Assembly (NCBI GenBank): GCA_026419785.1
Contig: JAODTK010005209.1
Location: 124,001-188,000, forward strand
Origin: Sclerodactyla briareus
Taxonomy: Eukaryota; Echinodermata; Holothuroidea; Dendrochirotida; Sclerodactylidae
Direction of reading: 5' to 3'
DNA length: 64,000 bases
Shown: positions 25,824 to 59,729 of the stretch, piece by piece
How the letters are laid out: every line of letters starts with the position of its first letter
How positions within the stretch are numbered: the first letter of the stretch is position 1
The notes under the pieces: model-generated
Told to the model about the DNA's origin: nothing
The model's input: the letters and a program-made list of their open reading frames with translations, nothing else
The model's database searches: none
Translations under genes and position numbers: made by a program

Positions 25824-25942
25824 GGTTAGGTCTGTCAGACTTATTTTTCCTGGTGTTTGAAGTTTGTGCTGAGAACAAGAAGCAAGATTGAGTGGAAGAG
25901 TTGGAGACCTATCAGGCTGACCAGGCTGCAAAGCTAGCACAG
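25824..25942 (+). CDS. SEC14L: SEC14-like gene, N-terminal helix exon
   Basis: The acceptor tgagtctctttag| and the donor GCACAG|GTAAAT bound 119 nt. The 3' half reads VEELETYQADQAAKLAQ, which aligns with the amphipathic helix just before the FRE-type motif of SEC14L proteins. An in-frame TGA directly precedes VEEL and no ATG follows it. Either the initiator lies elsewhere or was lost to an error, or the upstream half (FLVFEVCAENKKQD) is real coding with one wrong base. It ends in phase 0. Confidence 0.55.
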
Positions 25943-28900
25943 GTAAATACTAAATTAATCTCTTCTATATGTATACAAAATTGTTAATTAACTTGTTATT
26001 GGGGGTCGGTTCCATGAGAGGTTTATAATCTACATACCGCCGTCTGCCTCATTTATAGCATGGTTTAGGTTCCTCCTGTGGTACTGGTTCCCTGAGAGGC
26101 CAATATTTGACAGTCCTCTTCAAGCCCCATGTATAGCATGGTTAAGGTTCCCCCTGTTGGATTGGTTCTCCTAGAGGGCAGGTATCTCATACCTCCTTTC
26201 CAGTTAGCCAATTTACTAGCATGGTTGGGGTCCCACCTGCTGTGCTGGCCACCTGGAGGGCAGGTATTACATATACTCCAAGCCTCATAGCAACTCCGAT
26301 TCCGCTTGCAGGCCATGAATTTTATACTTATTTTCTAGCCAGGAATACCAGCGAAAAAAACGGTATTGTTGGGTCAAAATCCCCACCCCCCTCCTTCCCC
26401 CCCCCCCCCGCCTCTCAAAAGCAAAAGGAAGATTTGTCCTACCAATTCAATACCCAGTGATGATTCAGTTCACTTGGTGTCACCCTGGGCAGGGCTATAT
26501 CTCTGCAGGGGGATATTTGGTAATCGATGCAGCCAGCCAAGTCGCTTGTAAACTGTCTTGACAAGTGTAAGAGGGAAGTGGACTAGATGGCTTTTTCCAA
26601 CCTGTATATCCAATACCTTCAATGTGTTGTGGCTGACTCCATGAGAGGCAGATAATTACATACCTCTCCCAGTCTGCCCCATTCATAGCATAATCAAGGT
26701 CCCACCTGTTGTAATGGTTCAGTATTGGGGTGGGTGGGCGGGGGGGAAGACCAGGGTACTCCGACATATTGGCCCCCGTTATTAAAAGTGAATCTCAGAG
26801 ATGGTATTTTAAAATATCAAGATATGATCCAGGCAGATATGTACTACACGCTTTGTTTTCTGGTCCCCCCTAAGCTTTGTGATCTCTTTTTTTGATGTGG
26901 GGCCACATAAATAGTCCACAGAGCAGCAATCGTAAATGTCAGAATTTTTCGGTGGCAACCCCCATTCACTCCATTCTGGTGCCAGGGTATTGCCGATACA
27001 GATGTACAAACATTTGTAACCCCCTCTGCTTTCTTACAATCCTGGTAGGAACCCTGGCCACATCAAATCCATTCTGTGTTCCCCCCCCCCCATATGAATT
27101 ATCTAGAATGCCCTATAACACTATTTTGTTGAAGTGTTGTCATATCTCTGTTTTCTCAATGTTTTCTGACCTTGAAACCGATTGTCTCTCAGGCAGTGTT
27201 CTCTCCACGGCTAGCTTGGAGATGATCATTCTGATTCAACTGAGTGTAGTCAAGTATTATCTTGCGTTCGCATTTACCTCGTTGAATCTCGTGCTCACGA
27301 CTTTCCCACCTTCCCGTGAATTGCGTTCCAGTGAAACAAGTCGTGAAGATGGAATACAAGGATGGTGGCCTACATGAGCGAACTTAAAAACACTCCGTAT
27401 GTACAATATTGGAATGAAGAAGATCTAATCTGTGTTTTCATTAGTCCTAGAATATTATTTATTACGGCAACGAGAATCGAAGGGTATTATTGAATTTGAG
27501 CATTTAACAATTTCGACAATCGAACGTTTTGACGATAAACTTTACTACACTGGTAGTGGTTGCGCGAAAAGCACTCGATCGCCGACGTTCGGCGAACAGC
27601 CTTTTGAGTCTGCGATATTCGCTAGTTATGGAATTGGTTCGCAACTAACGGCAGTGATTGTTTTCCGAATGTTCTCATCTTCGAGAATATTGACCTGAAT
27701 TCTTCATTTGTACATGGGAATAGTGTCTATTTGGCTTCGACTTTTCAACTCAGTGGTCCGATGTCCGCCATCTTGGATTACAGTCGTGGACGTCGAGTGC
27801 TATTCGAAATTCCCACTTCACAACTGGTGATTCACGACTTTGTTTACAACTGGAACGGGTCGTATCGTGTACACCGTGTCACGGTTAAATGGAACGCAGC
27901 ATTAGTACCCTAGGAACATCAATCATAAGTTTGTGAGGACAACGCACCTCATGAAGTCCCACCTGAAACCACTGGCGTTCCTTCTCCACATAAGCTCCAC
28001 GCTCCCTATTGTAACCTCACAATCTATGGCGCATGAAAATCCAAAACACTGCAACATGCCAGGGAAAGTTGTTAGCCACATAATGTACTATATAGAGAAT
28101 GTGACCTGCATCGGCAAATTTGTGGATCAACTGCTTCACATGACCTGCTACAGATGATACACCAGCCTCTGATCATAGCTGCCTTCCTTGTTTCTTCCAT
28201 GTTCAGAGAGAGTTTGAAGGATGTTCTGAAGGAGAAACACCCGGACCCTACCTTCTCAGGTTCTTGAGAGGTTTTGTTTCTCTTATCATTTGTCATAGAT
28301 TGTGGGATTTAATTATGGTTTGGAACCCTTCTTCTGGACGCTAATACCCCATACTTATCTCAACGTACTTATATTTCAGGCTGCATACCATTACTCCTAC
28401 CCCCCCCCCCTCTTGTTCCCAAAGGGGTATTCACCCACTCAATGCAGATGAAACAACAGTTGTATGGCATTGTAGAATGGAGGGTCAGTCATCATTCAGT
28501 TATAAAGAGAAATAGACAAGAACTAGTGTACCCATAACATACTTATTTTCAGACACATCTATTACCCCCCCCCCCCATACCCTCCCCCCCCCCCCCAATA
28601 CCCTCCCCCCCCCCCCTGCTCCTTTCCACTTGTTTGCCATCACCCCTTTGATGCAGACATGAAGCAAGAGTCGTATGCATTTCATGGTATGAAGGCAGTC
28701 ATTAGTCAGTCAGTCATAAATGAGAAAATTAGACAAGAACTATGTTTCATATTTTCTCAAGTTTATATGAAAAATAGCTGTCTCTGGATTTTATTAGGGA
28801 AACTCACTAGCTTCCTTCAACCTCAAGTCACATTCACAAGTGTAACATATGTCCTTACTGGTTGTTACCGGTACACTACTAGTTTTGTATCTGTAGTGAA

Positions 28901-31900
28901 AATAATAAACCAAGGAGCCCCTTTTCGGTTGCAACGGACTGCCATTGTAACTACGGAAAATTCTGGACCATGACCTGTTGGACTTTAATTCATGTTGTAC
29001 TGTATGCACATTTCATGTGGGAGAAGCTTGAGGGAGGACTTGTGCAGTTGAAGACATGTATAACACTGTTTATGAATTAATGGCGTTTAGAATGTTAATA
29101 TAAACATTTCTTTCTCAGGTCATCTGATCTCAATAATCGAGGTCAGACAGTGATGGCATGTTTCTACGCAGTTTTCCATCCACTATCTTCTCACTGTCAT
29201 TGATAACCCTCAAGTCCTCATCCGCATAACCAGCTATTTATTTTCCTGGCACCCGGGTTTCCATATCAGACATTTTGCCATTGACTGTGGCCCCTTAGGC
29301 CAGTGTGTACTATCTCTGTTCCTATCTTGAGTGTTCACCTGACTCCAACATCCTCATTTTCTCAGAGAACAGTGTAGCTCAATGGACTACAGCTTCTCGT
29401 AACCTTCCAACTGAAATTGTCGCTGCAGATTTAGGGCAATACAGCAAACAGACAAATGTAGTTGAATTTACTTAATGGATCTTATGCTGTGAGATCATGC
29501 CTAGCGGCCTAGCCACTTCCAACTGCCCAGCCTCCTCCAGGAGAAGCAAATTAGGGCCCTGGACCTGACCCATCTCCACCCGAATGTCCTGAAGTACCTT
29601 ATGCTGCGCAACATAAACTACAGGATGATCACAAGGGATCAGCCCTGATCCACTGTCCTGTGCCATATGCCCATATTAGGAACACTTACTGTCTTTGTTC
29701 CTTGTGGCGTCTGCTGGCATCTACTAATCCCATGACACTGAACACTGTGAGCGCTTTTGTTTCTCGTGCATCTACGAACCCCATGACTGAGAGCTTGTTG
29801 TCATGTGGCATCCCCTAATCCCCTGACCCTGAACACTTGAGAGCTTTGTTCTTGTGGCATCCACTAAACCCATGACACGACACTTAAGATCTATTGTTCT
29901 TGTTGGCATCCCTAAAACCCAGACACTGAACACTTACGAGCTTTGTTTCTCGTGGCATCTACGAACCCCATGCACTGAACCCTTAGAGCTTTGTTTCTTG
30001 TGGCATCCACTAACCCCATGAACCACCTGGAACACTTGAGAGCTTTGGTTTCTTATGGCATCCACTAAACCCATGACACTGAACACGTTAAGGCTTTGTT
30101 TCTCGTGGCATCTACTACTCCATGACACTGAACAGCTTGAGAGCTTTGTTCCTGTGGCATCTACTAACCCCATGACACAGAACTCCTTGAAGCTTTGTTT
30201 TCTTATGGCATCTATTAACCCCATGACACTGTGAACAATTGACAGCTTGTTTCTTGTGGCATCTACAACCCCTGACACTGAAATCTTTGAGAGCTCTTGG
30301 TTTCTGTGGCATTAGAACCCATGCCACAAATCTTGAGGAGCTGGGTTTCTCGTGACATTACTAACCCCATGACACTGAACACTAAAGAGCTTTGTTTCTC
30401 ATTGGCATCTACTAAACAAATGACCCTGAAAACACTTGACGGGCGTTGTTTTCTCGTAGGCATCTACTAACCCCATGACCAATGAACATAAAGGGCTTTG
30501 TTTGTTTCTCATGGCATAGAAACCAATGACACTGAACAATGACAGCCCCTTCTGTTTCTAATGCGCCCTTATAACCCTCATACACTGACAATAGAGCGGG
30601 TTTCTCATGGCATCTACTACCCCATGCCATCGGAACACTTGACAGCTTTTTTTCTCATGGCATCTACTAACTCCATGAAACTGAACACTTGAGAGCTTGG
30701 TTCTTGTGGCATCTATTAACCCCAATGACACTGAACAATGAGAGCTTTGATTCTCATGGCATCTACTAACCCCATGACACTGAACACTTGAGAGCTTTGA
30801 TTATCATGCATCTACTAACCCCAAGACACTGAACACTTGACAGCTTTGTTTCTCATGGCATCTACTAACTCCATGACACTGAACACTTGAGAGCTTTGCT
30901 TCTTGTGGCATCTATTAACCCCATGACACTGACACTTGAGAGCTTTGTTTCTTCTCATGGCATCTACTAACCCCATGACACTGAAACTTGAGAGCTTTGA
31001 TTATCATGGCATCTACTAACCCCATGACACTGAACACTTGACAGCTTTGTTTCTCATGGCTCTACTAACCCCATGACACTGAACACTTGAGAGCATTGTT
31101 TCTCATGGCATCCACTAACCCCATGACACTGAACACTTAAGAGCTTTGATTCTCATGGCATCTACTAACCCCATGACACTGAACACTTGACAGCTTTGTT
31201 CTCATGGCATCCACTAACCCCATGACACTGAACACTTGACAGCTTTGTTTCTCATGGCATCTACTAACCCCATGACACTGAACACTTGATAGCTTTGTTC
31301 TCATGGCATCTATAACCCATGACACTGAACACTTAAGAGCTTTGTTTCTCATGGCATCTATACTAACCCCATGACACTGACACTTGAGAGCTTTGTTTCT
31401 CATGGCATCCACTAACCCCATGACACTGAACACTTGAGAGCTTTGTTTCTTGTGGCATCTACTAACCCCAATGACACTGAACACTTGAGAGCTTTGTTTC
31501 TCATGGCAATCTACTAACCCCATTACACTGGACACTTAAGAGCTTTGTTTCTCGTGGCATCTACTAACCAACCCCATGACACAGAACACTTGAGAGCTCT
31601 GTTCCTTGTGGCGTCCACTAACTGAATCTCATTTTTCAATTCTGTGACATAATATTCCTTGTTCACTTCCCAGCCAGGAACTTTAACTTGAAGAAGAGTG
31701 AGGACATGATTAGAAGTGAGTGGGAGAAAAAAATGAACACGCACTTCCTTCAAGTATATTGAAGGATATTCTTAGTCATAGGGTATTTTTGGGGAGTCAA
31801 ACGCTCCTTCAAATTAACTTTGTGTCATCAGTGACCAATGGTACTTTGTGAGGTAGGTGTTCAAGAATTTGTTGGAAAGTTGGTGGTCATGTAGGTGTCA

Positions 31901-34900
31901 ATTTGAGTCACAAAAGGTCATTTTATTTGCAATGAGATACTTGCTTGTATATGGATTAAGCTACAGCACCACTGGTACTCTAGTTGTACATATGGGTTTA
32001 TACATAGTTACAATGAGCGATTTATGCAACCATCCCGAATTTTATTTTCCTCGATGATGACAAGAAAGAAGAATTCCTCATCTAAATGGCTTGAGAGCGA
32101 GTCAAATTCCACTTGCTACCTGTGACCATCATGGTTGCAACCTTGCATGCTTCTAATTGATAAATACGAACGCTGTAATGACATAACTTTTTCGTTTGTT
32201 TCTTCTTCCAGGCATAGAATGGAGGGTCAGTAACAAGATGTCAACCTTCACCAAGGACTGTGCACTCCTGAGGTGAAATATATTCTCTAGCTGATATTAC
32301 ATTGTGTTGATTCCTTAAATGCTATAATATAATAATAACAGTCTATATAACGTCGAACTCCACACAAAGGTTGTTCATGCGCTTTAGCAGTGCGGAGAGT
32401 GCAGTGGTAACATTAGGGCTAGGAAAAAAGTTTTCAGATGATGTCTGAAACTATCAATATGAGTCAATGGGACCTCAATAACAGGAAGGGAGTTCCATAA
32501 GTGGGGAACATAGCCAATAAAGCTACGGTCACCATATGGTTTTGTTTGAGACCTGGGAAACCTGAGTTGATGCTGAAGATGGAGCGAACATGTCTGTGCT
32601 GACTCTGTGTATGTAGGCAAATTTGTAAATGAGCTTGAGTACCAGTTTTGATAGCACGACATGCAATGATGAGAGCCTTATAGTCAATGCGCTGAGGAAT
32701 AGCAAACCAGTGTAAGTCTCTCAGTAGGGGTAACGTGTAAATTTCCTAACCCTGTTCAAACTACACAGGCAGCTGTGTTTTGAACTCTTTGTAGCGAGAT
32801 AATTGGCTAGTGGAAGCCCCCAACACTTCAATATCACTTCAATATCATTTCCGGCCCCTTCATTCAGGGCTTGGCCAAGTCCTGGTTCAGGAATAGCACA
32901 TCCTGTAATACTGGTATATGTCCAGGTGGGGTGAGGCTAGGTCTTGGTTTAGGAATAGCACATCCCTGTGATACTGGTATATGTCCAGGTGGGGTGAGGC
33001 TAGGTCTTGGTTTAGGAATAGCACATCCCTGTGATACTGGTATATGTCCAGGTGGGGTGAGGCTAGGTCTTGGTTTAGGAATAGCACATCCCTGTAATAC
33101 TGGTATATGTCCAGGTGGGGTGAGGCTAGGTCTTGGTTTAGGAATAGCACATCCCTGTAATACTGGTATATGTCCAGGTGGGGTGAGGCTAGGTCTTGGT
33201 TTAGGAATAGCACATCCCTGTAATACTGGTATAATGCAGATGTGTGAAGTTTGATTCTTTCTGGTTAAAGAGCACAAAAAGTTTTCATGCCATGGCCCTA
33301 ATATTGAATTGTCTTATATTCCGTTACTGTCACCTGCCAATGTGGTGCACTTGCAGTGATACTTTGATATCTCAGTTGATGAACGAATAGGTCGGCGTGT
33401 AAGAATCTGCAAAGATGAGAGGAGGGACCACCAGAGATATATGTGAAGCTTGAATATCAATGTATAGATGGTGGATGGTGTCATACCAAGGAATGTTTCT
33501 TGTATATAAGGTGTTTCCTGTGGGTCCCTGTCATCGTTGGCTGGCTCTCATGGAACTTGCGAGGGATCAGTCATAACATGATGTAATAGTCACTCAAGGT
33601 GTTAATGTGAGTTTCTGACTAGCTGGCTGTCATAGGATAGAGCTTGTGAAGATGCAATGTAAGCTGCAATGTAACATATCCTGCTAATACTGTGTCCATG
33701 GCCTGCAGTTTCTCATATGCATTGATACCCGTCCTGGTTCACTTGAAGCCCACGTTGCAGCCTGAGATATTCTGCCCATAACTTTGGGGCCTTAGTTGTA
33801 CATGTACCAACATGACATGTCCTTGCTTTGATTCCTTGAGAAGTCAGAGACTCATGCGTCATTACATTGTTGTGTGATGTTGTTGTTGTATGAACGCCTG
33901 CTTGTGAACCGATAACTCGACCCCGACCTGGTGTATAAGCTCATACTTGGTATGTGTGTTCCCATGAATGAGTACGAATCTAAGTTTTGGGTCAGTCAGA
34001 GGTCATATGAGGTCACCAAGTTCGAATTCTGAAAACACATTTGTGACACGATAATCCAAATGGTTGGTCTTGATCGGGTTCAAAGATGTGTCGCTTTCTT
34101 ATGGAGATTACAGGAGCCCTGTTGTTTTTGGTGTAGGATCGGGGTAATGTTTGTCAAAAATAGAATATTCGTGAAAAGTCAATATTTTGGACCATTTTGG
34201 CTTGTGGAACACTGTAAACCCTCGACCCCCATGCACCTTGATGGATGAAGCTCATCCTTATTATGGTGTGTAACCATGATGAGTAATGCCATCCTAATTG
34301 TTTTGGGGTCTGGTCAGATTTCATCTGGGGTCACCAGAATCAAGTTAGAAAACCTTGTGAACACGATAAGTCCAGAATGGTGTCTGATCGGGTTCAAATT
34401 TGTGTTTAGCTTTCCTCATGAGGAAGAACAGAACCCCATTTTTTTTGGTATATGTCGGGGGGTGAATTGTGGTCAAAAATGAAAATTTGTGGAAATAGTC
34501 AATAATTTGCCACATTTTGGCTTGTGAACACGATAACCTCGACCCCACCTGGATGGATGAAGCTCATACTTGGTTTGTGGTTCCCCATGATGAGTAGAGG
34601 ACCCTATTGTTTTCGCGTCGTCATAGGTGATCTTGAGGTCAACAGGTTTTTTTCAAAGTCTGAAAATCTTGAATTCTTGTGTAGCTTTCTTATCAAGAGT
34701 TATAGGACCCCTAATTGGTTGGTTGGGAAAATGGGAAACTTGTCAAATGTTATGTGCCCATAATGAGCTGCTACACATTCCCATTCGTCCTTGTGTCTAC
34801 TATAGGTTGTCAAAGATCAAGGAATCACTAACCTTTCTGGCTTTCTGATTCATTTCTAACAAGTATGTGTATGGTGTCTTGTCTTGTGTGGTTTGTGTGT

Positions 34901-37900
34901 GTGCGTGAATGCCTTCCTAATTGTAATCAAACGAAGGAAGTCACCTCCGGTTCGATTAGGTGGGTAGGCTTATCATGTTGAGTACGAGCGCTATTGACTA
35001 TAGCATATTAAAATTTCTTCTACTTTCAGTTTGAAAATTAGGCGAGTCAGACATGCCTGTCCAGTTTTGTGGGCAATATTCCCCAATGGATATACACCAG
35101 TGCCTCTTTAGTGTCACTCTGGGTCCAGTTTTGAGATGATAATTTGGCTTTCAGCTACTTTTCAATCAAGCCTGTGCTAAATATTCTAGTGAGATCAAGT
35201 TCAAATTGGCACGTTCCCCTAATAAGTACACAATCGTCATATTGGCGTTTAGTGTCAGTCTGGGGTCGATTTCTGGGATTTGAGACAGCATAGAAACAAT
35301 TTATATAGCTCTTTCATTTGTATAAATCAATCTAATCAAGTCAGACAAATGCTCGTTGTAACTCAAGTTCCACTCAACTTGTTGTTATGTTTTACACATG
35401 ATGAGAGCATGGATTTCAATCACTAATCTTCTCACCCTGTAATTCGTTAGTCCCACCCAGCTCCCCCCCCCCCCCTCCTGCCTTGTTAACATTGTGTGGA
35501 ATTCCATGAAATTGGGGCAGTTCTGTCTCTCATTTGAATATGGTCTCAGCATTCCCCTGGCAGGCATGAACTCTGTATCAAATAATCAACTGTCCATAGT
35601 GGTTTGGACCTCTGTATAGGCATCAGAAACTAATACATTGCCCTGTATGTGGAAAAACTTGTGTCAGGGCTATGTGCTGAGTAATTATTCGATTTAGGCA
35701 ATGAAAATTATGAACTTTTTTGGGAAGGTATAAGATAAACTCTTCATATGTTTGTTTTCTGCCTACTATATTTGTCAATATTTTTTTTAATCATGGAAAA
35801 CTATAAGGGACCTAAATAATTGATGTCATTAGAAATGTTTACTGAATAATGGTGATTGTGTTACTAATTAGTCTCTACAATTACCACTGATAGTCGCACA
35901 GTTGTGTTTTACAACAAAAAAAGGGTGATCTCCGGAGTTCACCAAAAACAGCAGTTCAACTGGTATGCCCTGTAGTTCCCAGTGTCATGTTCCCTCAGAC
36001 CTGATGAGGAGGAGGTGGGGGGGGGTGGGGACTGGGGTTGAGTGGTGGGGGGGGACGAGGGGGGAGCAGGAGGGTGGGACGGTGATTCGGCCAGGGGCGA
36101 CCCGTTTGGCTGTGGACCACTCTTACGGGACCTGGTGTGATGGAACTTGTCAGGCTGTCGGATGTTGTTCGACCGATGATACGGGGGGATATTGACATCC
36201 GGACCACCAACTAAAGGAACTGACCTATCATCACTTACAAATTCAGTAGTGGTTTGCAGGGCAATTGAAAAGTTCTGGCCAAGAGGATCTACTGGAGGGA
36301 CAAAGATGGGAACCATGTTGAGATATATGCCTAACTAATGGTTTTTTTATAAATTTATTTGGCCAACTGGATGTTAAAGGCAAGTCGATCCCCCTGTTAT
36401 TATATTACCATTAATCTAGATCACATTTCCCAAGATTGATGGGGCAGTAATATGATTTCAGTTCAACAAGCCACGCAGCTGTGTGTGCAGTATGGTGTGT
36501 GTTTTGTAATGTTAATCAGACCCCCGGGGCATTGAATACACAATTTTCTAAGGGGTGTGAACTTTTGGAACCGACGAGATTCTTCTGTCTGAGACCGACG
36601 TCCTTGATTGACTATTTTGTCTTTTCCTAGGTTTGTCGGCGACCGTTGTGTAATAAAGACGAGGAGGGCGGGGTGGTGGGGGGGGGGGGTTGGCCGCGGG
36701 CGGGGGGTGGGGGAGGTGGCCAATCTTTCTTTGTAGGTGGCTTCGTACAACGTACTTTGTTACAGTTTTTATGCATTCTTCGCTTTCACCACATCCATCT
36801 TCGGGGGCATTCAAGGTTCCTTCTTAAAAATTGACTTTGGCCGCTCAGAGACTGACTTTGCCGCTACGGGACCAACTTTTCAATATCTCAGGGGGGTGTC
36901 AAACCCCCCACATTTACGCCCCATCAAACACCAGACTTGATCAGGTCTATGTGGGTGAATTCATATCTCTCCTGTCAATCTTTTAAGGACAGGTCAAGTA
37001 AAAAAATCATCTGAGATTAATATATGTCATCTCTGACAAAATTTGTAGCATGGTAAGTCAGTAACACGGTTCAGAAGCCCATGGCCCTTCTCGGAAATTA
37101 CTAATTAAACGTACAAAACAGACCAAACAGGGCTCAATTCTTTCAGTGTCAAGAATACCGGGGTAGTTAGTATATTCGGGGTGACGTGTTATATGCAAAT
37201 ACAACCTTAATGTCAATCAGTTGAATGTATTTGGTTATTACATCAGTCATTCACCTAGTTTAGTGTCTACCGTTTTACGATACATAAATAGTGATGATAC
37301 CACCAGTTGTGCTAATGACCATTCTGCTAATGAGTGATTCTCACCATATCAAGGAAAAAAAATGCTTCAAACAGATCTCTGTAGAATATCTGACAAAACA
37401 ACTTGAATAGAGGTATTTATAATGAGTAAGTATGTAATAATACACACATAGCATATATAGTCTATGCTATAAAGGGTTCAACCACAGCATATATGTGGAA
37501 TCCACTGGCTCTAATGGCATTATCCATTTACAAGCAGTGGCACGAAGTGCTAAGTGGTCTCTGTGAGTTGTGTCTTTGTTATTGTCGGTATGTATGAAAT
37601 GAAAAACAACTTTTTTTTGGTAGTAACATGTTATGAAAAATAGGATGAGTAGGATTTGGCATTCAGTTACATTACTCGGAAATTGGGGTCCACACTAGGC
37701 CACATTTACATCCCCTGTTGACTATGCACAGGCGAATTTCAAAGTGGGAATCATCATTGCATGCTTTCATTTACAAGGTAACAAAAAATCCAAGTTTATA
37801 CAATGTTTGAATGGTTCAACTACTCATCTGGGCAAATCCATGATAACTGATGCTACATTATGATGCTTAAATTCCAAAGTACAGAGGGTGACAAAGTGAT

Positions 37901-44799: not shown

Positions 44800-44834
<35 letters not shown>

Positions 44835-47800: not shown

Positions 47801-50800
47801 TTGACAAAATGTAGAGTACCATGGCTGCACAATTGATTGAGAGCGAGTTACTGGGATCCCCCTACTGTAATACACCTATATATAGCCATAAGTCCAGCAA
47901 TACAGTTGGCCCTACTGTACAGGTCAACAGCCTGATGGTGTCAGGTTACACCACATGGAATGCTGCAGTAGCATTGAGAGGGGGTGGTTGTGACTCCCTC
48001 GGGAAGTTTACTACTGGATTATAGATGTATATAAAGTGCATACTCTTTGACGATAGATGCTATTGCTATAGTTCATATTTTTTTCATTCCATCACCACTT
48101 ATTTCTATAATTATCGCTATATAAAATTGCATTATTATGAATATTTTACATTATTATTTCATAGACTTGAAGGTCATTCAGTTTCTACTTTGCATGCTCA
48201 TTCCAATTTCAAAGTTCGTTTGATTGTCTGACCTTTCGAAGATTATTTTGAGAATTTTGAAGTCAGAACTGGGTCATGGAATTTTCCGTTGCTATTTGTT
48301 TCGAATTTACCTGTATTGTTTGCACGTGACTAAAAGAACAATCACCGATCCGGCAACCAGGCGAGACACTGGTTGCGATCGCCTGTTCTGTCACTCCAAG
48401 CCGGGATAGTGGGGCATGACTGGGACTACATCATGCCGCAGCATGACCACCTGAAGCTATTGATCCTCTATGTGCCCTTGGCCTCAAATTTCTGAACACA
48501 TCATATATACTATTTGACAATGAATGTACTGACTAACCGTCATAATCCATCAATGTACTTCCACTTCCAATTATCTTAAACCCCCCCCCTCACCCTTACT
48601 CGTCACATTCTGGCAATTGTTGACGCATTCTGAACGGTCATCCCCATGGGTCCTAACGCTGTCACCAGAATTCTGGTTACATGTCGCATTGTTTGCAAAG
48701 TTATAGTAATTAGTTCCCAAATTTGATGCTTGAACAATTCACAGTTTTAACTTTGAGGTCTTCTTGACCACGGTTAGCTCAGACTTTTGTTGTGTGTGTG
48801 GCTTAGGTGGCTAGCTAATATGCTTGTCTCTTAGCCCAGTGTCCGACAACGGGCGACACCAACAAATCCGGTTGTTAGCTCGGACACCCGGTGTCGACAC
48901 CCCATATACTTTGATGTGAGGATATTGATGACAAGCTGTCATGATCATCCTGTACATTGTGTGGGAGTGGAAGCAACTTGACAGTTCAATCGAAATGGCA
49001 GAATCGACCCCTAGATGACCGTGGACCTCAATCTTAACATACTGACTGAATATACTGAATAACTGGTCATGTGAACAAACATTTGAAATCCTGTGGGAGT
49101 GGGAGAAAAAGTGTTTTGTTCTGTTTACTATCGAATGTCATTTCTGGCAAAAATTACCTTCAGATTACCTTTGACCTGAATTCCTGAACTTTCATATAAG
49201 CATGCATCACCAATAATACTGACCAACTTTCAAATATATCCATTGAAAGCATTGAGAAAATAAAGCAGTTTCGCATATTCCCACAAAATGGCCACATGTG
49301 TAGACCCTAGATGAGTTTTGACCTCAACCTATCTGAGCACCATAGATGACCCTCCAATCGACCACTCATTTATCAATGTGACCACCAGTTGATCCATCAA
49401 CGGATTTAAGAATGAAATTTGAATCATTGTGGACAGTTGGGTGAATGGATGGAAAGCCGCAGATTCGGACACCACACACACCCCACAAGCATGAATCGAG
49501 ATAAGGGTCAATGGGACTGACTGATCCATGGACCACGTTAAAACATTGTCCAACGCCAACACAATTAGATACCCAATAAATCCTCTGAAACCGATGTTTT
49601 CCTGTATTCCACAGCCGGAAGCTGGAAGTTCACCTGTTGAAAACATCGAGCCGACCAGCTTCCAAAATACTGGGGTGGAAGCCTGGCCGACCCTGATGGT
49701 GACCCCAAATGTCCCAGCAACAGGTATGAAAATACTTGAATAATCCCTGCCTGCCATAGAACAAACGCACGGGAAATATGCTTCATTGAATTGACCAGAC
49801 AGCATGCTCAAAAGTCAGAGAGTGCAGGGTCCAGTGCAGTGGTCTCTACTGTTGGTAGAGTGTCCCCAGTTGTAGTGTCAGCTTAAAACCACTCTGGCGG
49901 AATGTTGGTGTTCAAGTCCCTGTCGGGTCCTACCAAAGACTTTACTACTCGAGTAGGTCCGATACTGTGTTCGGCAAGTCTATAAAAAAATCTAAAAATA
50001 TATATGATGAAATAACTAAAATGCACCAGGCCCGCCACAAATGCATGTTGTGTTCTGTAACTATGGCAACTACCTCTGAGCATTGTGTTGGTTCAAATAT
50101 GGGGACCATATAAGGGAAAGGGGGAACCTGACCCCTTTTTTTTTTCTTTTTCCCAAAATGGTACATGTGAAAATCATCCAAGGTGATTAAACCCCCCCCC
50201 CCAAAAAAAAAAAAAAAAAAAAAAAAAAACACATTTTTCACCTCCCCTGTTTCAAACCCCTCTTTTCCTGATTGTTGCTGCCCATGCTCACAGATCTTGG
50301 TGATTCCCCATTTGGATAGAGTTTGTTACTCAACATTAAATACCTCTACTCAGAAGTAAACAGTGTAGATTTCTCTGAGGATTGCTTTGAAAATGTTCAT
50401 CGGCCACTGCTCTACCCATAAAAACAAACATAACGAATGATTCTTACAGGCAACTTCCTGAACTCCTATTGGCCAGACAGTGGGTGAAGCAGGGCATCTC
50501 ATATAACAATTATCCAATCATGCCAAATTATTCCATTTTACCAAGTAATTGGATGCTGAAGAGAATATCAGTGTAATATTGGTCAGGAAATGTTTATGCA
50601 TGCATAGGAAAGGGAAATCACTTTTTCCCCGAAATTCAAATGAGGACAATCCCCAATTTTTGTAGCCTCCTCCCGCATGTTTGTCTACATTCTCAGTTCC
50701 ACGAATTGCAAGGCCGTGGTTGTCAAATGTGAGTGTCATGATACCTGTCAACTGAACTGGCTCGGAACAAGGTCAGTTACACTCCACATGGCTTTGGGTA

Positions 50801-53800: not shown

Positions 53801-56800
53801 TATAAGAGAAAGTAAGTGATACCGGAACAGAGGTTCTGCACCCGCTGTGTGGTTGCCTACCAGTTCCACCTGTTTGCCTAATCAATCACCATTAGTGGTT
53901 AAGACAGAGGCTGGCACAATCACATCATATTAGTCAGCAGGGGAGGAAGAGTGTGGTGGAGGCCATAGGCTGGACCCTCTAACACCAGTGGGAAGGGTGA
54001 GGGGCAAAATTAGTAGCCTGCTACAGTGGCATCAATATTTATCACATTTTGCACCGTGCCAGTGTGTGTTTTGCCCTTTGTGGTGGTTTTTGCTGCCTTA
54101 ATGATTGGGTATATACCTGGATGGTTGTCAGCATTGTGGGTATCACAGTTGGTAGAGCCCTGCTCACCACCCAGTAGAATAGGATCTGAATCCTTATAGG
54201 GTCTTTCTCGCTGAGTGCTCAGAACAGTACAGAGCTATGCCACCCTGGATGTCTGTTGAAACCAGAAATCCCCAGGTTGGGCACCCTTGGCAGGGTAGTC
54301 GTGATAGGTGTATACCCATCTCAAGAATCGTTCTAACAGGGTAGTAACTATGGAGCCCTTTCATGACTTGGGTACCCATGGCAGACCCTGTCAAGACAGG
54401 CTGTTATACTTGTGGCCCCGTTTTATCTAAGTTCCACGTCAAGGACAAAAGGGTTCAGTATGCACAAAAATGGTTGACATGGTTGAAAGGCATCACTCAA
54501 GACATGAGTGTCAGAGAACCTGTTGCCCATCTCAGTTGTTCAGACACTTTTTAGCAGCGCATCAAGTATGCACCATTGTCAAGCCTCCATGACTCCTAAA
54601 AATCAATGTAGTGATTCATAGCGAGAGAACCCAACATACCAATGCAGTCAACGCAGGTCCCCGGCCAAGGGTACCACGCGGCAACGGAGTACCACTCGGC
54701 AAAGGGTACACTCGGCCAAGGGTACACTCTGGCCAAGGGTACCACTAGGCCCAAGGGTACCACTTAGGACAAGGGTACCACCTCGGACAAATAATAACTC
54801 AACAAAGTAGGATCCAGCGGTGGCTATAAATTATGTCAAAGCCAACTTTAGCCATTGAGGGCATGTCCCATTTCCTTCAGGTATTCAAATAATTTCTAGA
54901 CCAGTGAGAGGGACATCAACTATGAGGTTGATGAACATCTGGTAGATTGGGGTCCAGATCCTGCTAATGCGGGTTGCACCGTCCTGGATGAGTTCTGTGA
55001 AAGCTGCCATATACTGTGGGTAATTGTGCATGATGCTAAGGTGGTTTGCTTGATGATAATAATGACGCATGATGCTGCCTGATAATTATGTGATAATAAT
55101 TATGATGATTATAAAAATGATGCTGTATGATGATAATATACTAATGATGATGTATTGATAATGATGTTGATGATGGTGCTGTTAGCACTGCAGATGCAGT
55201 ATATTAGTATTTGGGCCCATAAATGATTCCACTGCGCCTTTCGGCTGGAAAAGGACCACAATATAGGTAACATTGGGCAGAGATAGACCAAAACTGAATT
55301 TTTCCCCCCTTCATGAATTTTTGGCAAATCTCTTCCTGCCTCCCTTATACCCATACTGAACGCATTATACCTGGAGATGTATATCATCAGATTTATGTCT
55401 TTGAGCTCTGTACAGCGTGGGAAGATACCAGAGTCTTACTACATGAAAGACCAGCTCTTTGAGGAGGAGGGGCCCCACACCAAAGTGGTCAGCAAGAGCG
55501 GGCAAGCAAGATGATCAAGTATGAGTCCGAATCCCTGAGAGGCCGCGGGTATCAGGTGAAATTGGGGACATGTCAATTAGTTTTGACCCGTGGTGGCTGT
55601 GGTACAATGTAACAGTAAACAGTTTGGCAGCATGGACATTATTATGCAGTTTTAGTGCATGGAGATACCTGCTTAGCATAATTTAATGTCAGGCCTGGGC
55701 GGGGGGGGGGGGGGGGGTGGCAGCAACTCATACCCTCCCAAACCGCAAGTCGAAGGAAAAGGAAAAAGGAAAGAGAAATAAATGCTGTGACCAGCACCTA
55801 GCTGTGGGGGCTAATGATCCTGAAACTCCAGCCTGAGCTCACCTGTTGTGATGTCAGACGACCAGAACAGCAGTTTTCTGTCTTCTCCCCTGCAGCATGC
55901 TAGCCTAGCTTCACCAACTGCATTTCCTTCCGGACACTTCTTTTTCCAGTTTAGTATTATTTTTTGTTTTATTTTGGGTGAAATTCTCTAACTCCTCTGA
56001 AAAATTACAACATCATCCGGAATTTTGTTAGAGTGATGTTAATTTCTCCCTGGCGGTATCATAAGTTACCCTTGCTGCCATGGTCGATACTTCCTGATGT
56101 TGGATCTTGCAAACTTCAAAATCCCCCTTTGAAAATATTTAGCTAGGACTCCCGACAGCCTCTGTATTTTCTTTCTGAATTGGGGGGGGGGGGCATGCCT
56201 CTCTCCCCTACCCTCTGCCCTGTCACACCCTTGAGTAATGACTCTTGACATGGCTAATCAGAGAACTACAACTGTGTAACAAACTTTTACGTTTAACTGC
56301 ATTATACCTACCCGGGGTTGCATCAATGAATGGATCCAAATGAAAACTCATGCAGTGGCTAATAATTGCTCAGTCAGTTTACATGCTCAAGGGTAAAGGA
56401 GTGACATTTGCCTTTGTACAAGTGTCATTTGTGTTCAGAATTGTCTCCGGTTTTGATTGCTTCCCACCGTCTTTCAGGTGTTAGCATGTCAGTGACATTA
56501 AATCCCATTGAATTTAGCATACCCATTTGAAATTTTTGTGATTCCAGTCACCTAATCGGCTGACCCAATGCTGTATCGGCAAAGCCTGGCAGTTACAATA
56601 ACCTGGGTGGCCTCCCTATCGCCCATCTTGTTTTGGTTTGCCGGACAGCACTCTGTGAATCTTTTTATTGCCTCTTTCGCTACAATATGCATTTGAGGGT
56701 AAGAGCAGTGACAATTGTCCCATGAGAGTCAGAATGTTTCTCTCACACTTTTGTCCTTAGCCGAGATGCTCCTCTCCAACCCATGTGCTAAAAAATGGGA

Positions 56801-58470
56801 ACCTGTAAGTACAGCAACCGGTGCTGTTTAGCTGCTGCCCACAATGCTCTCTTCTCCAAGGATTGTCCGAAGGCTACCAGCTCGGGGATGATCAGGTACT
56901 CCTCTCCTGTGAAGTGCTCTGAGCACTATGGTGGGAAGGCACAATTAAAAAACCCAGATAATAATATTATGTATTATTACTATGTATTTGTATTTGTATG
57001 TTTTAATTTCTTCTCTCACCCAAGGGTATGTGTTCAGCGCCCGAGGAGGGAGACAATCACGTTAACATCTACTCCTGGCGAAGCGGAAGGCCAAAGGACG
57101 ATGGGTATGCTGCATCACTGAGAGAGCTATGACTGTCACATCAGCCCCTTTGATGGGGTCGTGGAGGCCAAGGACCTTGGCTTTTGTGAGTTATTGTTAC
57201 CTCCAAGTAAATCAAACCCCAGTTTTTGTGCACAACAACCTAAATCTATCTATCAACCGATGTTGTCAGGTGGTGATAGTGGCCGTGTGTATAACAACAT
57301 TAACAGTAGATTTTGTATGTATCAGATTCAAAGTTTGATCACACTCTCAGACAGGTATTACTAGGTGTAATAAACAGTCAAGGGATATATAGCGCTCCAT
57401 TAAATTCGGTCTGTCAGTGTTACTTTTAATGAAGCTCCCCTTCAGATTAGCTCTGTCTGTAGAGCTCTGGATTCTGATCGAAGGTTGTGGTGTTTGAAAT
57501 CCTACAAGAGGCCGATCAGCCTTTTTGATGCACCCCCCTCTTCATTGCATCTTCATTTGCTTCTTTCTACCCATGTTGAATGGGACCTGTGGGCAGTTGA
57601 ATAGTACAGGCACTGTGTTAGACTGTGGCCACTATACTATCTGGGATTTCTGGGAGTGCGGCCACTTACTATGACTCAGGGTATCATGGAAAGATGCTGT
57701 AGACATGTCCATGACTCCAATATATCACTATACAGGTACTGTAAAATTCCATATATCAAGATATTATTACAAGAATGTTGGGTGGCACAAACACACACTG
57801 AAAGGTCGCTTCTACCCGCAAATCAATTTTTGGCATTTCGCTATACCAAAATTAGCAGTAAAGACACTAATGGTGAGCCTTTATATCAATTTTTTAGAAT
57901 GCCAAATAGGCTGGGAACATGTTATGGACAGCATACCGAGGTAAGCATTTCAAACCAAATTCTTTTGAGAAAGGAAGCCATTATAATTCGCTTGGAATGG
58001 TGTTAGTAAGTACTTCCAACCAAGGAATTAGGCACAATGCACGCAAGCATCCCCTGATTTTTCAGTTTCTATAGTGTCCTCATTTCTGACACAGCCAAGG
58101 TCTGGTGGCTTGTAGTTCATAAACCAGGTTCTCCAAATGTTGTCACAAAGATGTTTTTGGGTGAGTTGCAAGCATCCCTATGAATCTTTCAGATCACTAT
58201 CCCTACCTAGGTGCATTACCTATGTAATGCTACAAGGACCAGCCACCTGAATGTGTCACAGCAAAAATGTTTGACACCAATGTTAGTCTTTCTTATATCT
58301 CATCATGTTTGAAATTTTTGTTTCATATGTGTTCTGTTTTGAGAATACTTCCAAGTGAAAACAAGCCACTGAGCTATCAATTGAAGGTCATGGAACCAGA
58401 TGAGGAGTCCTATCGGAAGGTGGAAGATATGAATGATGCTGCAGATCATGCCATTGCTTGGTTTGATTAA
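25824..58470 (+). CDS. SEC14L: SEC14-like CRAL-TRIO/GOLD lipid-binding protein gene (locus overview)
   Basis: Twelve + strand exons, listed separately, rebuild a protein of roughly 400-425 residues, the usual length of animal SEC14L2-4 proteins. Domain order is an N-terminal CRAL-TRIO helix (YLLRFLRARNF, SEDMIR, IEWR), the CRAL-TRIO lipid pocket (DxEGLG, YYPETLK, RAPGIFP, the final WGG), then a GOLD domain to the stop. Family members are cytosolic, bind and move hydrophobic ligands (phosphatidylinositol, tocopherol, squalene), and regulate lipid metabolism. Exon order is collinear and most phases match. Introns run from about 0.5 to 6 kb and are full of repeats. Several exons need 1-4 nt indels, all indels and not substitutions, which favours assembly error over decay. 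The start codon is not resolved. Confidence 0.9.
26030..26290. repeat. Tandem repeat of about 88 bp, three copies
   Basis: The unit carries 'tagcatggttaaggttcccc', 'tgttgtactggttccctgag' and 'agggcaggtat...cctcc'. A fourth copy stands apart at about 26625-26730. All lie in the first intron of the SEC14-like gene. Confidence 0.75.
27260..27960 (+). promoter_or_regulatory. CpG-rich block with a YY1-type site
   Basis: This stretch has many more CG dinucleotides than its surroundings, with clusters around 27560-27605 and 27770-27880. It contains CCGCCATCTTGG at 27765-27776, a full match to the known YY1 consensus. It lies inside the intron just upstream of the 28207 exon. It may be an alternative promoter and first-exon region of the SEC14-like gene. 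No first exon that splices in phase was found in it, so this is inference. Confidence 0.35.
28207..28270 (+). CDS. SEC14L: SEC14-like gene, CRAL-TRIO N-terminal exon
   Basis: A strong acceptor (ccttgtttcttccatgttcag|) and a TTGAGAG|GTTTTG donor bound 64 nt. The 5' part reads ESLKDVLKEKHP and the 3' part, in the next frame, reads PYLLRFLR. Together they match the 'F-R-E...D-V-L...LLR-F/W-LRAR' signature that opens the CRAL-TRIO N domain. One base is missing near 28248. It ends in phase 1 (AGA G|), so Ala of 'LRAR' is completed by the next exon. Confidence 0.8.
28380..28740. repeat. Direct duplication with poly(C) tracts
   Basis: A block (C tract, then 'gatgcaga...aaca', then 'agtcattagtcagt'-like text, ending 'agacaagaact') occurs twice, at about 28395-28525 and 28560-28750. 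C runs of 10 to 14 bp sit at 28400-28411 and within 28565-28617. Confidence 0.7.
29705..31620. repeat. Minisatellite array, 50-bp unit, about 38 copies
   Basis: The unit is roughly 'catggcatctactaacccca' + 'tgacactgaacacttgagag' + 'ctttgtttct'. The array covers about 1.9 kb of intron and stops about 55 bp before the 31674 exon. Copies differ mainly by 1-3 nt indels. The - strand frames MGLVDAMRNKALK... are products of the repeat, not protein. Confidence 0.97.
31674..31715 (+). CDS. SEC14L: SEC14-like gene, 42-nt micro-exon
   Basis: Bounded by a pyrimidine-rich acceptor (ccttgttcacttcccag|) and a consensus GTGAGT donor. It reads (A)RNFNLKKSEDMIR, matching the 'RARxFdlqKSEaMLR' helix of SEC14L proteins, phase 1 at both ends and without frameshift. 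Its 5' side lies almost against the 50-bp minisatellite. Confidence 0.85.
32212..32272 (+). CDS. SEC14L: SEC14-like gene, exon with the IEWR motif
   Basis: A near-ideal acceptor (tttgtttcttcttccag|) and a CTGAG|GTGAAA donor bound 61 nt, phase 1 in and phase 2 out, fully open: IEWRVSNKMSTFTKDCALLR. 'h(L/I)EWRk' is the hallmark that ends the CRAL-TRIO N domain. The join with the micro-exon gives EDMIR-S-IEWR. Confidence 0.85.
32384..32815 (-). pseudogene. Non-LTR retrotransposon reverse transcriptase fragment (3' end)
   Basis: Read on the - strand the pieces come in the order expected for the C-terminal part of a LINE-type reverse transcriptase: LQRVQNTAA, then LLRDLHWFAIPQRIDYKALI, then FPRSQTKPYGDRSF, then PHLWNSLP and FRHHLKTF before a stop. 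At least two frameshifts separate them, so it is dead. The class is CR1/L2/RTE-like; the exact clade cannot be told from this much. It lies antisense in an intron of the SEC14-like gene and is cut off upstream by the 63-bp array. Confidence 0.88.
32882..33233. repeat. Tandem array of 63-bp units, six copies
   Basis: Nearly identical copies of a unit containing 'ggaatagcacatccctgt', 'aatactggtatatgtccagg' and 'tggggtgaggctaggtcttg'. Five copies are 63 bp and the first is 62 bp. Two variants (GTAATAC and GTGATAC) occur in blocks. Because 63 is divisible by three, long frames open on both strands; they are artefacts. The high identity implies recent expansion. Confidence 0.95.
33823..34850. repeat. 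Dispersed AGGTCA-rich element, about 1 kb copy
   Basis: Starts TTTGATTCCTTGAGAAGTC and ends GATCAAGGAATCACTAA, so the outer 11 bp (TGATTCCTTGA and TCAAGGAATCA) are perfect inverted repeats. Inside are the usual internal repeats with 'gaccccacctggatggatga', 'ccccatgatgagta' and AGGTCA motifs. Confidence 0.88.
34851..36259. other. Intron sequence; G-rich block at 36010-36085
   Basis: No accepted exon. The G-rich block gives a proline-rich open frame on the - strand (35939-36316). That frame overlaps, in antisense, the SEC14-like exon at 36260 and is rejected. Confidence 0.4.
36260..36380 (+). CDS. SEC14L: SEC14-like gene, exon with the DKDG motif
   Basis: After a gtagtggtttgcag| acceptor (phase 2) one frame reads AIEKFWPRGSTGG. 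A shifted frame then reads DKDGNHVEIYA, and after about 27 extra nt with stops a third piece reads FGQLDVKG. This is the family pattern '...GGxxGYDkdGxPVwi...fGxlDxKG' in the right order. The exon ends AAAG|GCAAGT, which would be a GC donor unless one G of a run is missing. The extra 27 nt are unexplained. Confidence 0.65.
36660..36722. repeat. Interrupted G-rich tract
   Basis: G runs of 4 to 10 bp in close succession, so the + strand could form a G-quadruplex. The opposite strand encodes a proline run inside a spurious open frame (36548-36814). Confidence 0.75.
38205..38295 (+). CDS. SEC14L: SEC14-like gene, exon before the CRAL-TRIO core
   Basis: The acceptor attgtgttgttctgtag| and the donor AAGAAG|GTTTGT bound 91 nt. 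It reads IMYSLKSSEREKVGIHLWSA and, after one missing base near 38270, MTSKGELKEG. It corresponds to the 'KGllfS...LL...tk.lG' segment of the family. It starts in phase 2 and, with the base restored, ends in phase 1 as the next exon requires. The 174-codon open frame on the other strand is a shadow. Confidence 0.75.
38355..39090. repeat. Dispersed AGGTCA-rich element with DR1/DR4-spaced half-sites
   Basis: Starts TTGATTCCTTGGAC plus a TG run and ends GTCAAGGAATACTAAGCC. It contains four perfect AGGTCA copies at 38866-38898 with spacers of 1, 4 and 4 bp, and another trio near 38529-38565. Confidence 0.88.
39265..41150. repeat. Satellite-like array, 44-bp unit, about 41 copies
   Basis: The unit is 'ctgaccctcagacctatgat' + 'gtatgctctgtagatatcca' + 'caaa'. 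Through about 40080-40830 copies with GTAGTTATCC and GTGGATATCC tend to alternate, giving an 88-bp dimer. The edges (39265-39850 and after 40960) are more diverged, as expected for an old array with a homogenised centre. Confidence 0.97.
41180..41720. repeat. Dispersed AGGTCA-rich element, partial copy
   Basis: Begins TTCCTTGAAGAAATC with a TG-rich run and carries 'gcatgtaaactaataac', 'ccccatgatgattacg' and 'gtacaggaacccc', like the other copies. It directly follows the 44-bp array. Confidence 0.78.
42082..42169 (+). CDS. SEC14L: SEC14-like gene, CRAL-TRIO core exon (DxEGLG)
   Basis: A strong acceptor (ttttttatcttcttcagcag|) and the donor AATGAT|GTAGGA bound 88 nt. Pieces in three frames read GRYIEGVT, LDM, GLGSHFL and IINLWND, matching the family's 'G(K/R)xVexxTxIxDxEGLGlkhLwKP' strand. 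About four single bases appear to be missing. With them the exon runs from phase 1 to phase 0 and joins the next exon to give WND-MMVIMEQYYPE, the family's exact spacing. Confidence 0.8.
43549..43692 (+). CDS. SEC14L: SEC14-like gene, CRAL-TRIO core exon (YPETLK...APxxFP)
   Basis: The acceptor tatgtccttcgtttctcggcag| and the donor CAAAA|GTGGGT bound 144 nt. It reads MMVIMEQYY and, after one missing C at about 43576, PETLKKVFITRAPGIFPLVY and KPFLDEATKKKVKIL. This is the most conserved part of the SEC14 domain: the YPE(T)LK loop, the APxxFPxxY helix that gates the lipid pocket, and the KPFL...T(K/R)KK helix. It is the exon that identifies the gene. Confidence 0.95.
43735..44050. repeat. Dispersed AGGTCA-rich element, short copy
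   Basis: Begins with a GATGAGGAATCCATG/TG-run boundary just after the 43549 exon and has 'tgcttgtgaacaggataaca' and 'ctgggtggatgaagctcat' in the family order. Confidence 0.7.
44783..44836. repeat. (CTGT)n microsatellite
   Basis: About 54 bp of CTGT units just inside the left end of the TIR element. Its reverse strand gives the DRQTDRQT open frames, which are spurious. Confidence 0.95.
45340..46710. repeat. Internal tandem repeat of about 560 bp
   Basis: Landmarks such as 'ctcccgcttcaatcggacac', 'ggcgtgttcatggaatgcaa', 'ttctaggagtggatgcatca', 'gccatgtcattgaaggtcat' and 'aaaggttgagtcttgaat' recur in the same order starting near 45350, 45915 and 46498. The third copy is cut by the inner element at 46713. 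Confidence 0.88.
46713..47311. mobile_element. Nested 0.6-kb copy of the TGTCTCGCCTG TIR element
   Basis: TGTCTCGCCTG at 46713-46723 and CAGGCGAGACA at 47301-47311 bound a 599-bp unit whose left end (gaaacgttgttcaagaagag) resembles the outer element's left end. It interrupts the third internal 560-bp repeat. Confidence 0.78.
48839..48901. other. Hairpin and palindrome
   Basis: GTGTCCGACAAC near 48839 can pair with GTTGTTAGCTCGGACAC ending near 48887, apart from a short bulge. Directly after it comes the perfect 12-bp palindrome GGTGTCGACACC at 48890-48901. The function is unknown. Confidence 0.6.
49615..49723 (+). CDS. SEC14L: SEC14-like gene, exon ending the CRAL-TRIO domain (WGG)
   Basis: The acceptor tttcctgtattccacag| and the donor AACAG|GTATGA bound 109 nt. 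Reading across about three 1-nt gaps it gives GSWK, HLLK, NIEP, QLPKYWGGSLADPDGDPKCP. 'LPxxyGG(S/T)xxDPDGxPKC' is the diagnostic end of the SEC14 domain in SEC14L2-type proteins. The visible open frames on both strands here are shadows. Confidence 0.9.
49840..49995 (+). mobile_element. tRNA-derived SINE-like segment
   Basis: 'ctactgttggtagagtgt' resembles a tRNA D-arm (box A), and 'ggtgttcaagtccctg' 60-70 bp later resembles box B. It lies just downstream of the 49615 exon. No cloverleaf with intact stems was found, so it is not a working tRNA. Confidence 0.5.
50192..50229. repeat. Poly(C) then poly(A) tract
   Basis: 11 C followed at once by 27 A. This may be the tail of a reverse-transcribed insertion, or its length may be inflated by sequencing. 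Confidence 0.9.
50889..51180 (+). mobile_element. tRNA-derived SINE with a conserved central domain
   Basis: The box-B-like 'gttgtgggttcgagaccac' is followed by 'cttgagcaagtgcttcatcc' and 'ccaggtgctaaatggctacc', the arrangement seen in the central domain of many invertebrate SINEs. The element lies between an 11-bp inverted repeat, TACCCTGGTAG (50889-50899) and CTACCAGGGTA (about 51115-51125). Confidence 0.72.
51840..52200. other. GC-rich block of unknown nature
   Basis: Strongly GC- and CpG-rich compared with its neighbours and open in several frames on both strands (for example 51971-52228 + and 51955-52182 -). None has clear splice borders or a known motif. It may be part of a repeat whose 3' end is the duplicated segment at 52192. 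Confidence 0.4.
52192..52295. repeat. Direct repeat copy 1 of about 100 bp
   Basis: Contains 'tgtgatccagagcatcaa', 'ggtatagcctctctcttcaa' and 'tcaagtgaatggtcatgg', and is repeated at 53459-53560. The - strand of copy 1 is open and protein-like (TIHLRVIADGTTLSKLKREA). Confidence 0.8.
52910..52923. promoter_or_regulatory. RFX-type X-box
   Basis: GTTACCATGGCAAC is a full match to the known X-box consensus (GTNRCC, short spacer, RGYAAC). It lies in an intron of the SEC14-like gene. Function is inferred from the motif alone. Confidence 0.45.
53459..53560. repeat. Direct repeat copy 2 of about 100 bp
   Basis: Matches 52192-52295 with scattered indels: 'tgtgatccagagaatcaaca', 'ggtatagcctctcttcacct', 'acaagtgaatgggcatca'. 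The copies are about 1.27 kb apart in the same orientation. Confidence 0.8.
54140..54200 (+). mobile_element. tRNA-like SINE head fragment
   Basis: 'atcacagttggtagagccct' (box A-like) followed by 'aggatctgaatcctt' (box B-like). It is degenerate and short. Confidence 0.4.
54659..54790. repeat. Tandem repeat of about 17 bp
   Basis: About eight copies of a CTCGGCCAAGGGTACCA-like unit; most contain GGTACC. Confidence 0.92.
54885..55070 (-). CDS. Possible coding segment, family unknown
   Basis: 61 open codons on the - strand read YPQYMAAFTELIQDGATRIS and then WTPIYQMFINLIVDVPLTGL before TGA. The + strand is open over the same bases (VDWGPDPANAGCTVLDEF). Either strand could be an old exon or transposon remnant. 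No splice sites decide it, and it lies inside an intron of the SEC14-like gene. Confidence 0.25.
   Translation of the reverse strand: MRHYYHQANHLSIMHNYPQYMAAFTELIQDGATRISRIWTPIYQMFINLIVDVPLTGLEII
55035..55190. repeat. Low-complexity GAT/ATAAT tract
   Basis: Irregular GATGAT and ATAAT repeats over about 150 bp, ending at 'gatgttgatgatggtgctg'. Confidence 0.85.
55416..55555 (+). CDS. SEC14L: SEC14-like gene, exon linking CRAL-TRIO and GOLD domains
   Basis: The acceptor ctttgagctctgtacag| and the donor TATCAG|GTGAAA bound 140 nt. It reads GKIPESYYMKDQLFEEE, then KVVSKSGQA, then, in the next frame, MIKYESESLRGRGYQ. This matches the '(G)GxIPxxYYvxDQ...v.i.rGs...veYe' linker of SEC14L2-type proteins, where the GOLD domain begins. 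One base is lost near 55511 and probably one near 55420. It ends in phase 0. Confidence 0.9.
55556..57024. other. Intron with G-run and no accepted exon
   Basis: A run of 16 G (one T after it) lies near 55700, and a 10-G run near 56180. A 35-nt segment at 56862-56896 has splice-like borders but no place in the protein. Confidence 0.4.
57025..57185 (+). CDS. SEC14L: SEC14-like gene, GOLD-domain exon
   Basis: The acceptor ttcttctctcacccaag| and the donor GGCTTTT|GTGAGT bound 161 nt. It starts in phase 0, reading GMCSAPEEGDNHVNIYSWRS, then SGRPKDDGYAASLRE. After a 2-nt loss in an AG run near 57122 it reads SYDCHISPFDGVVEAKDLGF. The second half aligns residue for residue with the 'xYnsHlvPedGxlxcxdpGiY' segment of the GOLD domain. 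It ends in phase 1. Confidence 0.85.
57444..57610 (+). mobile_element. tRNA-derived SINE
   Basis: 'tagctctgtctgtagagctc' is a good box A/D-arm, and 'ggttgtggtgtttgaaatcc' a decayed box B at the right distance, like a tRNA-Lys-type head. About 80 bp later 'acccatgttgaatgggacc' corresponds to the central motif also seen in the SINE at 50889. It lies in the last intron of the SEC14-like gene. Confidence 0.65.
58262..58470 (+). CDS. SEC14L: SEC14-like gene, terminal exon
   Basis: The acceptor gaatgtgtcacag| is followed, in the phase 1 required by the previous exon, by KMFDTNVSLSYISS and an open stretch to SENKPLSYQLKVMEPDEESY and finally NDAADHAIAWFD with a TAA stop. 'xFDNtyS' and 'kk(l)xYxvxVxxPD' are the last two strands of the GOLD domain. 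The 20-residue middle part is hydrophobic and could instead be a short intron ending at the AG at 58342-58343. No AATAAA was seen close downstream. Confidence 0.75.
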
Positions 58471-58990: not shown

Positions 58991-59729
58991 TTTGAACAGT
59001 CACGCCTCTACATTCTAAATTGAATGAAATCATGAGTTTGAGAGATTGTCAGTATTGTATTGACCAATGGTATAATTGAAGTGTGTTCATGGGCTTTTTA
59101 GGTCCCATGGACACTTGAGGGACCGTTTTGTGCCCTTTAGGGAAAGTTTGATTCTTCTACCTGATAATGTAACGTGGTCAGTTTTCATCACATTCATCAC
59201 AGTGTCCATAGTATGGTTGTTTGGGAACTTGACATTCTTTTTCCTTTTGAGGGCCAAAGTTTTTATAGTGGAAAGTCACTTCTGGACCAAATTGTTTTTC
59301 TCTCTCCTCCTCAGCCAAAAATCTCTTTGATTTCCTTTTTCCCGTCATGCCTTGATCAGTGTATCAATACTCCGGGGACATAAAAGTATTCAGGAATTCA
59401 GTGAAAGGGTTTGAGGGGCAGTATTCAAATTGGTGGTGAAAAGTAGAAATTTGTCTCCGCTATGTTTTGATTCGATGCGTAAATGTCATCTAGCCACCAT
59501 TTTACCATTATTATGAGCATTTATCGAGAAATTGTACAGGGTGATCTGCTGTACAACTAGGCAACTTCTGTAAGAATGGTAATTTGCAAGAATGGAGCGG
59601 ATTCTCCCTCCTCCTTTCATGAGCATGAATCATCATAGAATTATATACACATGATACATGAACTTAGGCAAATTGTTTACCCTACTGTAACTGCATGAGT
59701 TATTATAATATATGTGACATATGACATTG

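Follow-up and report, generated by a model that had tools for sequence, protein, structure and literature searches.

The 64,000-nucleotide stretch of Sclerodactyla briareus DNA analysed here (the window) contains, as judged from its sequence, a real SEC14L2-type homologue on the + strand at 25888-58470. Hereby, ten collinear exons were accepted, which run from 25888 to a TAA stop codon ending at 58470 and of which the last two (E9 and E10) are weak candidates. It would belong to the animal SEC14L2/3/4-type genes: CRAL-TRIO helices at the N-terminus are followed by the lipid-binding SEC14 core and probably by a GOLD end, the coding sequence being spread over some ten or more short exons, between which lie long introns rich in repeats. 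It is a damaged or poorly polished copy of a known family and represents no new kind of system. We consider it fairly probable that an ordinary SEC14L2/3/4-type gene has here been broken by unpolished draft sequence.

Results and Discussion

Detection of the locus

To locate the gene, human SEC14L2 (residues 2-397 of the query were checked against PDB chains) was aligned with the region 24-60 kb in a spliced, frame-shift-tolerant alignment with strict costs, in which three tandem arrays were masked. The best path scores 261.6. Sixty shuffled SEC14L2 queries on the same DNA reached 70.5 on average (SD 8.7, maximum 90.9) and the reversed query 74.8; alignment to the reverse strand gave 60.0 and to the upstream 24 kb 76.0. 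The SEC14L2-type family, the + strand and the collinear exon order proposed in a first-pass annotation of the letters are supported. The path spans residues 1-295 of human SEC14L2 and leaves E9 and E10 outside; compared to the accepted exon list it reads the first part of E2 in another frame, ends E4 at 32225 and starts E5 at 42031. It also includes a segment at 34806-34959, which we rejected, as the same residues aligned alone do not score above chance. A candidate exon at 35058-35188 was rejected because its borders are poor and it scores lower than the average shuffle, a micro-exon at 57326, which had been included in one of the joined pieces, was superseded by E10, and spliced alignments with loose intron costs or otherwise cheaper settings were discarded, since they yielded many spurious tiny exons.

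Three further results are free of the bias that homologue-guided joining of exons introduces. A tblastn search without a splicing model returned E6 (E = 1.2e-8) and E7 (E = 1.6e-5, reading through one stop) as its two best exons. Searched by itself in the PDB, the open part of E6 hits SEC14-like protein 2 (E = 5.8e-10), 20 of 38 residues of this exon being identical to human SEC14L2. Pfam CRAL_TRIO is found above its cut-off (E = 4.6e-8) in one raw frame at 43572-43694, with stops written as X and nothing joined. Joined queries, i.e. pieces connected by X at the frame changes and composed with the homologue in view, give E-values that are optimistic for this reason: 4.5e-10 for CRAL_TRIO_N (40 bits compared to a cut-off of 23) and 9.4e-21 for CRAL_TRIO (profile positions 55-153 of 153).

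That the likeness arose by chance is a reading to which we give next to no weight. In its favour, neither E5 nor the GOLD part reaches significance in a separate test. The distance between the alignment score and the shuffled maximum, the match of E6 alone and the raw-frame CRAL_TRIO match argue against it, and for the core it is already refuted.

Exon structure

The accepted exons are as follows.

E1, 25888-25942, + strand: N-terminus; SGRVGDLS, then ADQAAKLAQ in another frame; one frame change; donor ACAG/gtaaat
E2, 28207-28270, + strand: CRAL-TRIO N-helices; RESLKDVLKEKHPD, then YLLRFLR in another frame; one frame change
E3, 31674-31715, + strand: (A)RNFNLKKSEDMIR; single open frame; good AG/GT borders
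E4, 32212-32272, + strand: IEWRVSNKMSTFTKDCALL; single open frame; good borders
E5, 42079-42169, + strand: SEC14 core around EGLG; GRYIEGVT, ILDM, EGLGSHFL and EAIINLWND in shifting frames; three frame changes
E6, 43549-43692, + strand: SEC14 core; PETLKKVFITRAPGIFPLVYSIVKPFLDEATKKKVKILK; strongest exon; one frame change; good borders
E7, 49615-49723, + strand: end of the SEC14 core; DQLPKYWGGSLADPDGDPKCPSN after three frame changes; good borders
E8, 55416-55555, + strand: linker towards GOLD; RGKIPESYYMKDQLFEEEGPHTKVVSKSG, then SKMIKYE...; one frame change; good AG/GT borders
E9, 57025-57185, + strand: proposed GOLD part; ..EEGDNHVNIYSW.., then ESYDCHISPFDGVVEAKDLGF; one frame change; weak
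E10, about 58324-58470, + strand: proposed GOLD end and C-terminus; YVFCFENTSK, then NKPLSYQLKV...AWFD; one frame change

For the N-helices, the core and the linker, homology and collinear order can be regarded as demonstrated, as can most of the borders and the stop after the last segment. E6 coincides exactly with the exon named beforehand at 43549-43692, and the previously proposed gene end, 58470, is the last base of the TAA that closes E10 in frame at 58468-58470. Nothing SEC14-like was seen at 25824-25888, where the gene had been said to begin, and compared to the twelve exons announced, ten are supported, E9 and E10 weakly so. The exon translations are not clean: frame breaks, of which no mention had been made, lie within eight of the ten. 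The view that annotation based on open reading frames would miss the gene, no single frame covering more than one exon, is supported together with its reasoning. Among the motifs that had been listed, raw frames contain LLRFL, IEW, APxxFP, DPDG and YYxKDQ; none contains YPET, and EGLG is present once, as RHEGLG.

The splice borders noted for the segments hold in part. Most are GT/AG. The AG of E2 is out of the protein frame (its donor, gttttg, is also weak), E10 shows no AG at the start predicted from the homologue, and the splice phases of E7 and E8 disagree. Furthermore, the first codon of E1 is TTG where ATG is expected. In E4 IEWR alone is clearly aligned, the remainder being an extension to the next donor. 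Tested alone by alignment against shuffles, E5 is not significant (98 of 150 shuffles score as high), and its assignment is based on where it lies, on its borders and on the joined query for the core. No PDB match was obtained for the open 29-residue piece of E8 or the 21-residue piece of E9, each searched alone, and the open part of E10 alone matched no SEC14 protein in the PDB.

Comparison with known SEC14-like proteins

With the long joined query, and hence again with optimistic E-values, human SEC14-like protein 2 (SPF/TAP1; PDB 1o6u, 1olm) ranks first (3.5e-43), closely followed by SEC14-like proteins 4 (PDB 4tlg; 6e-39) and 3 (PDB 4uyb; 1.1e-38). N-helices, SEC14 core and linker are shared with SEC14L2 in common order. 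In contrast to SEC14L2, SEC14L3 and SEC14L4, the locus lacks a detectable counterpart of residues about 80-138, its frames are broken, and its GOLD end is weak. Which of the three is nearest is not discriminated by the data. Yeast Sec14 and YKL091C as well as the alpha-tocopherol transfer protein share the CRAL-TRIO core, with much weaker scores (in the range of 1.8e-16 to 1e-9), and leave the linker and the GOLD part unmatched.

The order of SEC14 and GOLD is also common to SEC14L1 and SEC14L5, which, as far as the description in PMC10225987 goes, are PRELI-SEC14-GOLD proteins. These carry PRELI at the N-terminus, whereas no such domain was seen upstream here in the frames scanned with Pfam (six frames for 1-14.85 kb, one frame per strand for 14.8-25.8 kb). 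In the spliced alignment E1 is matched to the very start (residue 1) of SEC14L2.

The missing middle part and the proposed GOLD end

The gene had been described as nearly complete, a view that we do not share, as the first third of the CRAL-TRIO core (human residues about 80-138) appears to be missing from the recovered exons. When residues 78-140 were sought in 32273-42078, the best score was 34.8; shuffled queries averaged 38.6, and 48 out of 60 did at least as well. Three ungapped probes covering residues about 80-138 likewise gave no + strand match in this region among the eight hits listed for each.

A GOLD domain had been placed last in the exon order. In line with this, joined E9-E10 finds SEC14L4 (2.3e-5), SEC14L2 (5.4e-5) and SEC14L3 (6.4e-4) by phmmer, a weak match with the optimistic bias of joined queries. 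The claim is not supported by a separate alignment of the GOLD part, which is not significant (32 of 200 shuffles score as high); the Pfam GOLD model reaches 18.1 and 12.6 bits, both below the cut-off of 25.9, and three smaller separate pieces of E8-E10 gave no Pfam family.

The sub-threshold GOLD scores and the outcome of the shuffle control would suit another kind of CRAL-TRIO gene, similar to Sec14 or the tocopherol transfer protein, which has no GOLD end and to which E9 and E10 are foreign. We consider this very improbable, since yeast Sec14 (1.8e-16 at best) and the alpha-tocopherol transfer protein (9e-10) score far less well than SEC14L2, SEC14L4 and SEC14L3, the beginning of the protein (SGRVGDLS) and its linker (DPDGxPKC..SYYxKDQ) match the SEC14L2 pattern, and the top matches of joined E9-E10 are the same three proteins.

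Origin of the frame breaks

The 1,014 exon bases contain 12 frame changes (three each in E5 and E7, one each in E1, E2, E6, E8, E9 and E10), which are known from homology modulo three only and are taken here as single-base events. As written, the sequence offers no single continuous frame over the spliced exons. Such a frame is no family trait as such, but for want of it this copy cannot be called intact. In the reading that we favour, the frame would be continuous in the living organism, and both the breaks and the unfound middle exon would be products of an unpolished draft. Alternatively, the locus could be an unprocessed pseudogene: a SEC14L2-type gene, either duplicated or lost, in which the introns are kept, whereas frames, start and borders have decayed and at least one middle exon is gone. 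We regard this as unlikely, yet the number of frame changes, the TTG in place of ATG, the absent AG of E10 and the missing middle part speak in its favour.

Draft error is preferred over a pseudogene because of the absence of stops and the indel-rich repeats. The 22 assigned open segments amount to 324 codons, with a few bases entering the count twice, and contain no in-frame stop, an absence that is partly circular, as the segments were chosen for being open. Under neutral decay, 12 frame breaks without a stop have a probability of 0.017 at 8 substitutions per indel, which argues against a pseudogene, and of 0.22 at 3 substitutions per indel, which is compatible with one. Moreover, E6 is still close to SEC14L2.

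Single-base indels are common throughout the window, also beyond the exons. Five of the six tandem arrays are rich in them, with 74 indel events compared to 124 mismatches at 29806-31622 and 33 compared to 15 at 59726-60169. In 42 dispersed repeat pairs (excluding those with fewer than 60 columns or touching the listed tandem arrays) we counted 1730 mismatches and 587 gap events; 362 of the latter span a single base, and alignment near 70% identity inflates the gap counts. In neutral animal DNA about one small indel occurs per 5-10 substitutions, and the indel share of the repeats is thus high. The sixth array, 32879-33233, shows 1 indel and 4 mismatches in 355 bases. An error rate like that of the exons is therefore not uniform across the window, and this nearly indel-free neighbour counts in favour of a pseudogene.

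The same holds for the position of the frame changes. A clustering at base runs, as is typical of long-read errors, was considered and not borne out: a run of at least 2 lies within 3 bases of 11 of the 12 changes (11.0 expected) and a run of at least 3 within this distance of 5 (3.9 expected). Similarly, 62 of the 147 single-base indels in the tandem arrays adjoin the same base, close to the share of bases in runs within these arrays (0.28-0.50). Draft error is still ahead of the pseudogene, with its odds lowered by this test.

Surrounding sequence

Minisatellites with periods of about 50, 63 and 44 bases occupy the introns at 29806-31622, 32879-33233 and 39538-41140, respectively; the 63-base array is near perfect, the 50-base array full of single-base indels. 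A dispersed repeat family (22435-23719, 33827-34850, 38351-39097, 10934-11200 and 41405-41621), whose copies are about 68-73% alike, is probably an old mobile element; the frames scanned there gave no Pfam match. At 45332-46711 two adjoining copies of about 800 bases are 76.5% identical and unusually indel-rich, with 59 gap events (41 single-base) compared to 104 mismatches.

Positions 1-25800 are gene-poor as far as scanned: in the same frames as used for PRELI no Pfam family exceeds its cut-off, the best being APOBEC1 with 12.9 of the 27 bits needed. No second gene was found in the Pfam-scanned parts of the window. Neither ten longer open reading frames (above cut-off) nor two frame chunks, both outside the frame of E6, gave a Pfam match. 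Over the whole window, neither Rfam at gathering scores nor a tRNA scan produced a hit, and a search of phage DNA with E6 gave no match.

Function and implications

An animal origin of the gene is suggested by its similarity to SEC14L2-4 and by the length of its introns. According to PMC10225987, human SEC14L2, L3 and L4 consist of SEC14 and GOLD without an N-terminal extension, SEC14L1 and L5 having PRELI in addition, and the ligands of the former three include alpha-tocopherol, squalene, phosphatidylcholine and phosphoinositides. By homology, the gene product is predicted to be a lipid carrier. Like its relatives, it would hold one hydrophobic molecule (a phospholipid, vitamin E or a squalene-like compound) in the SEC14 pocket and would move or present this cargo between membranes.

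Where a draft breaks the frame about once in 85 coding bases, annotation based on open reading frames no longer sees an ordinary multi-exon animal gene and splice-based annotation has difficulty finding it, and we caution that such a draft-broken locus can pass for gene loss. If the breaks are real, the locus would be an instance of the loss of a SEC14-GOLD lipid carrier. That an animal lineage is losing this carrier, or has duplicated and discarded it, and that the locus is accordingly a decaying, intron-containing SEC14L2-type gene, seems to us slightly less likely still than a pseudogene as such.
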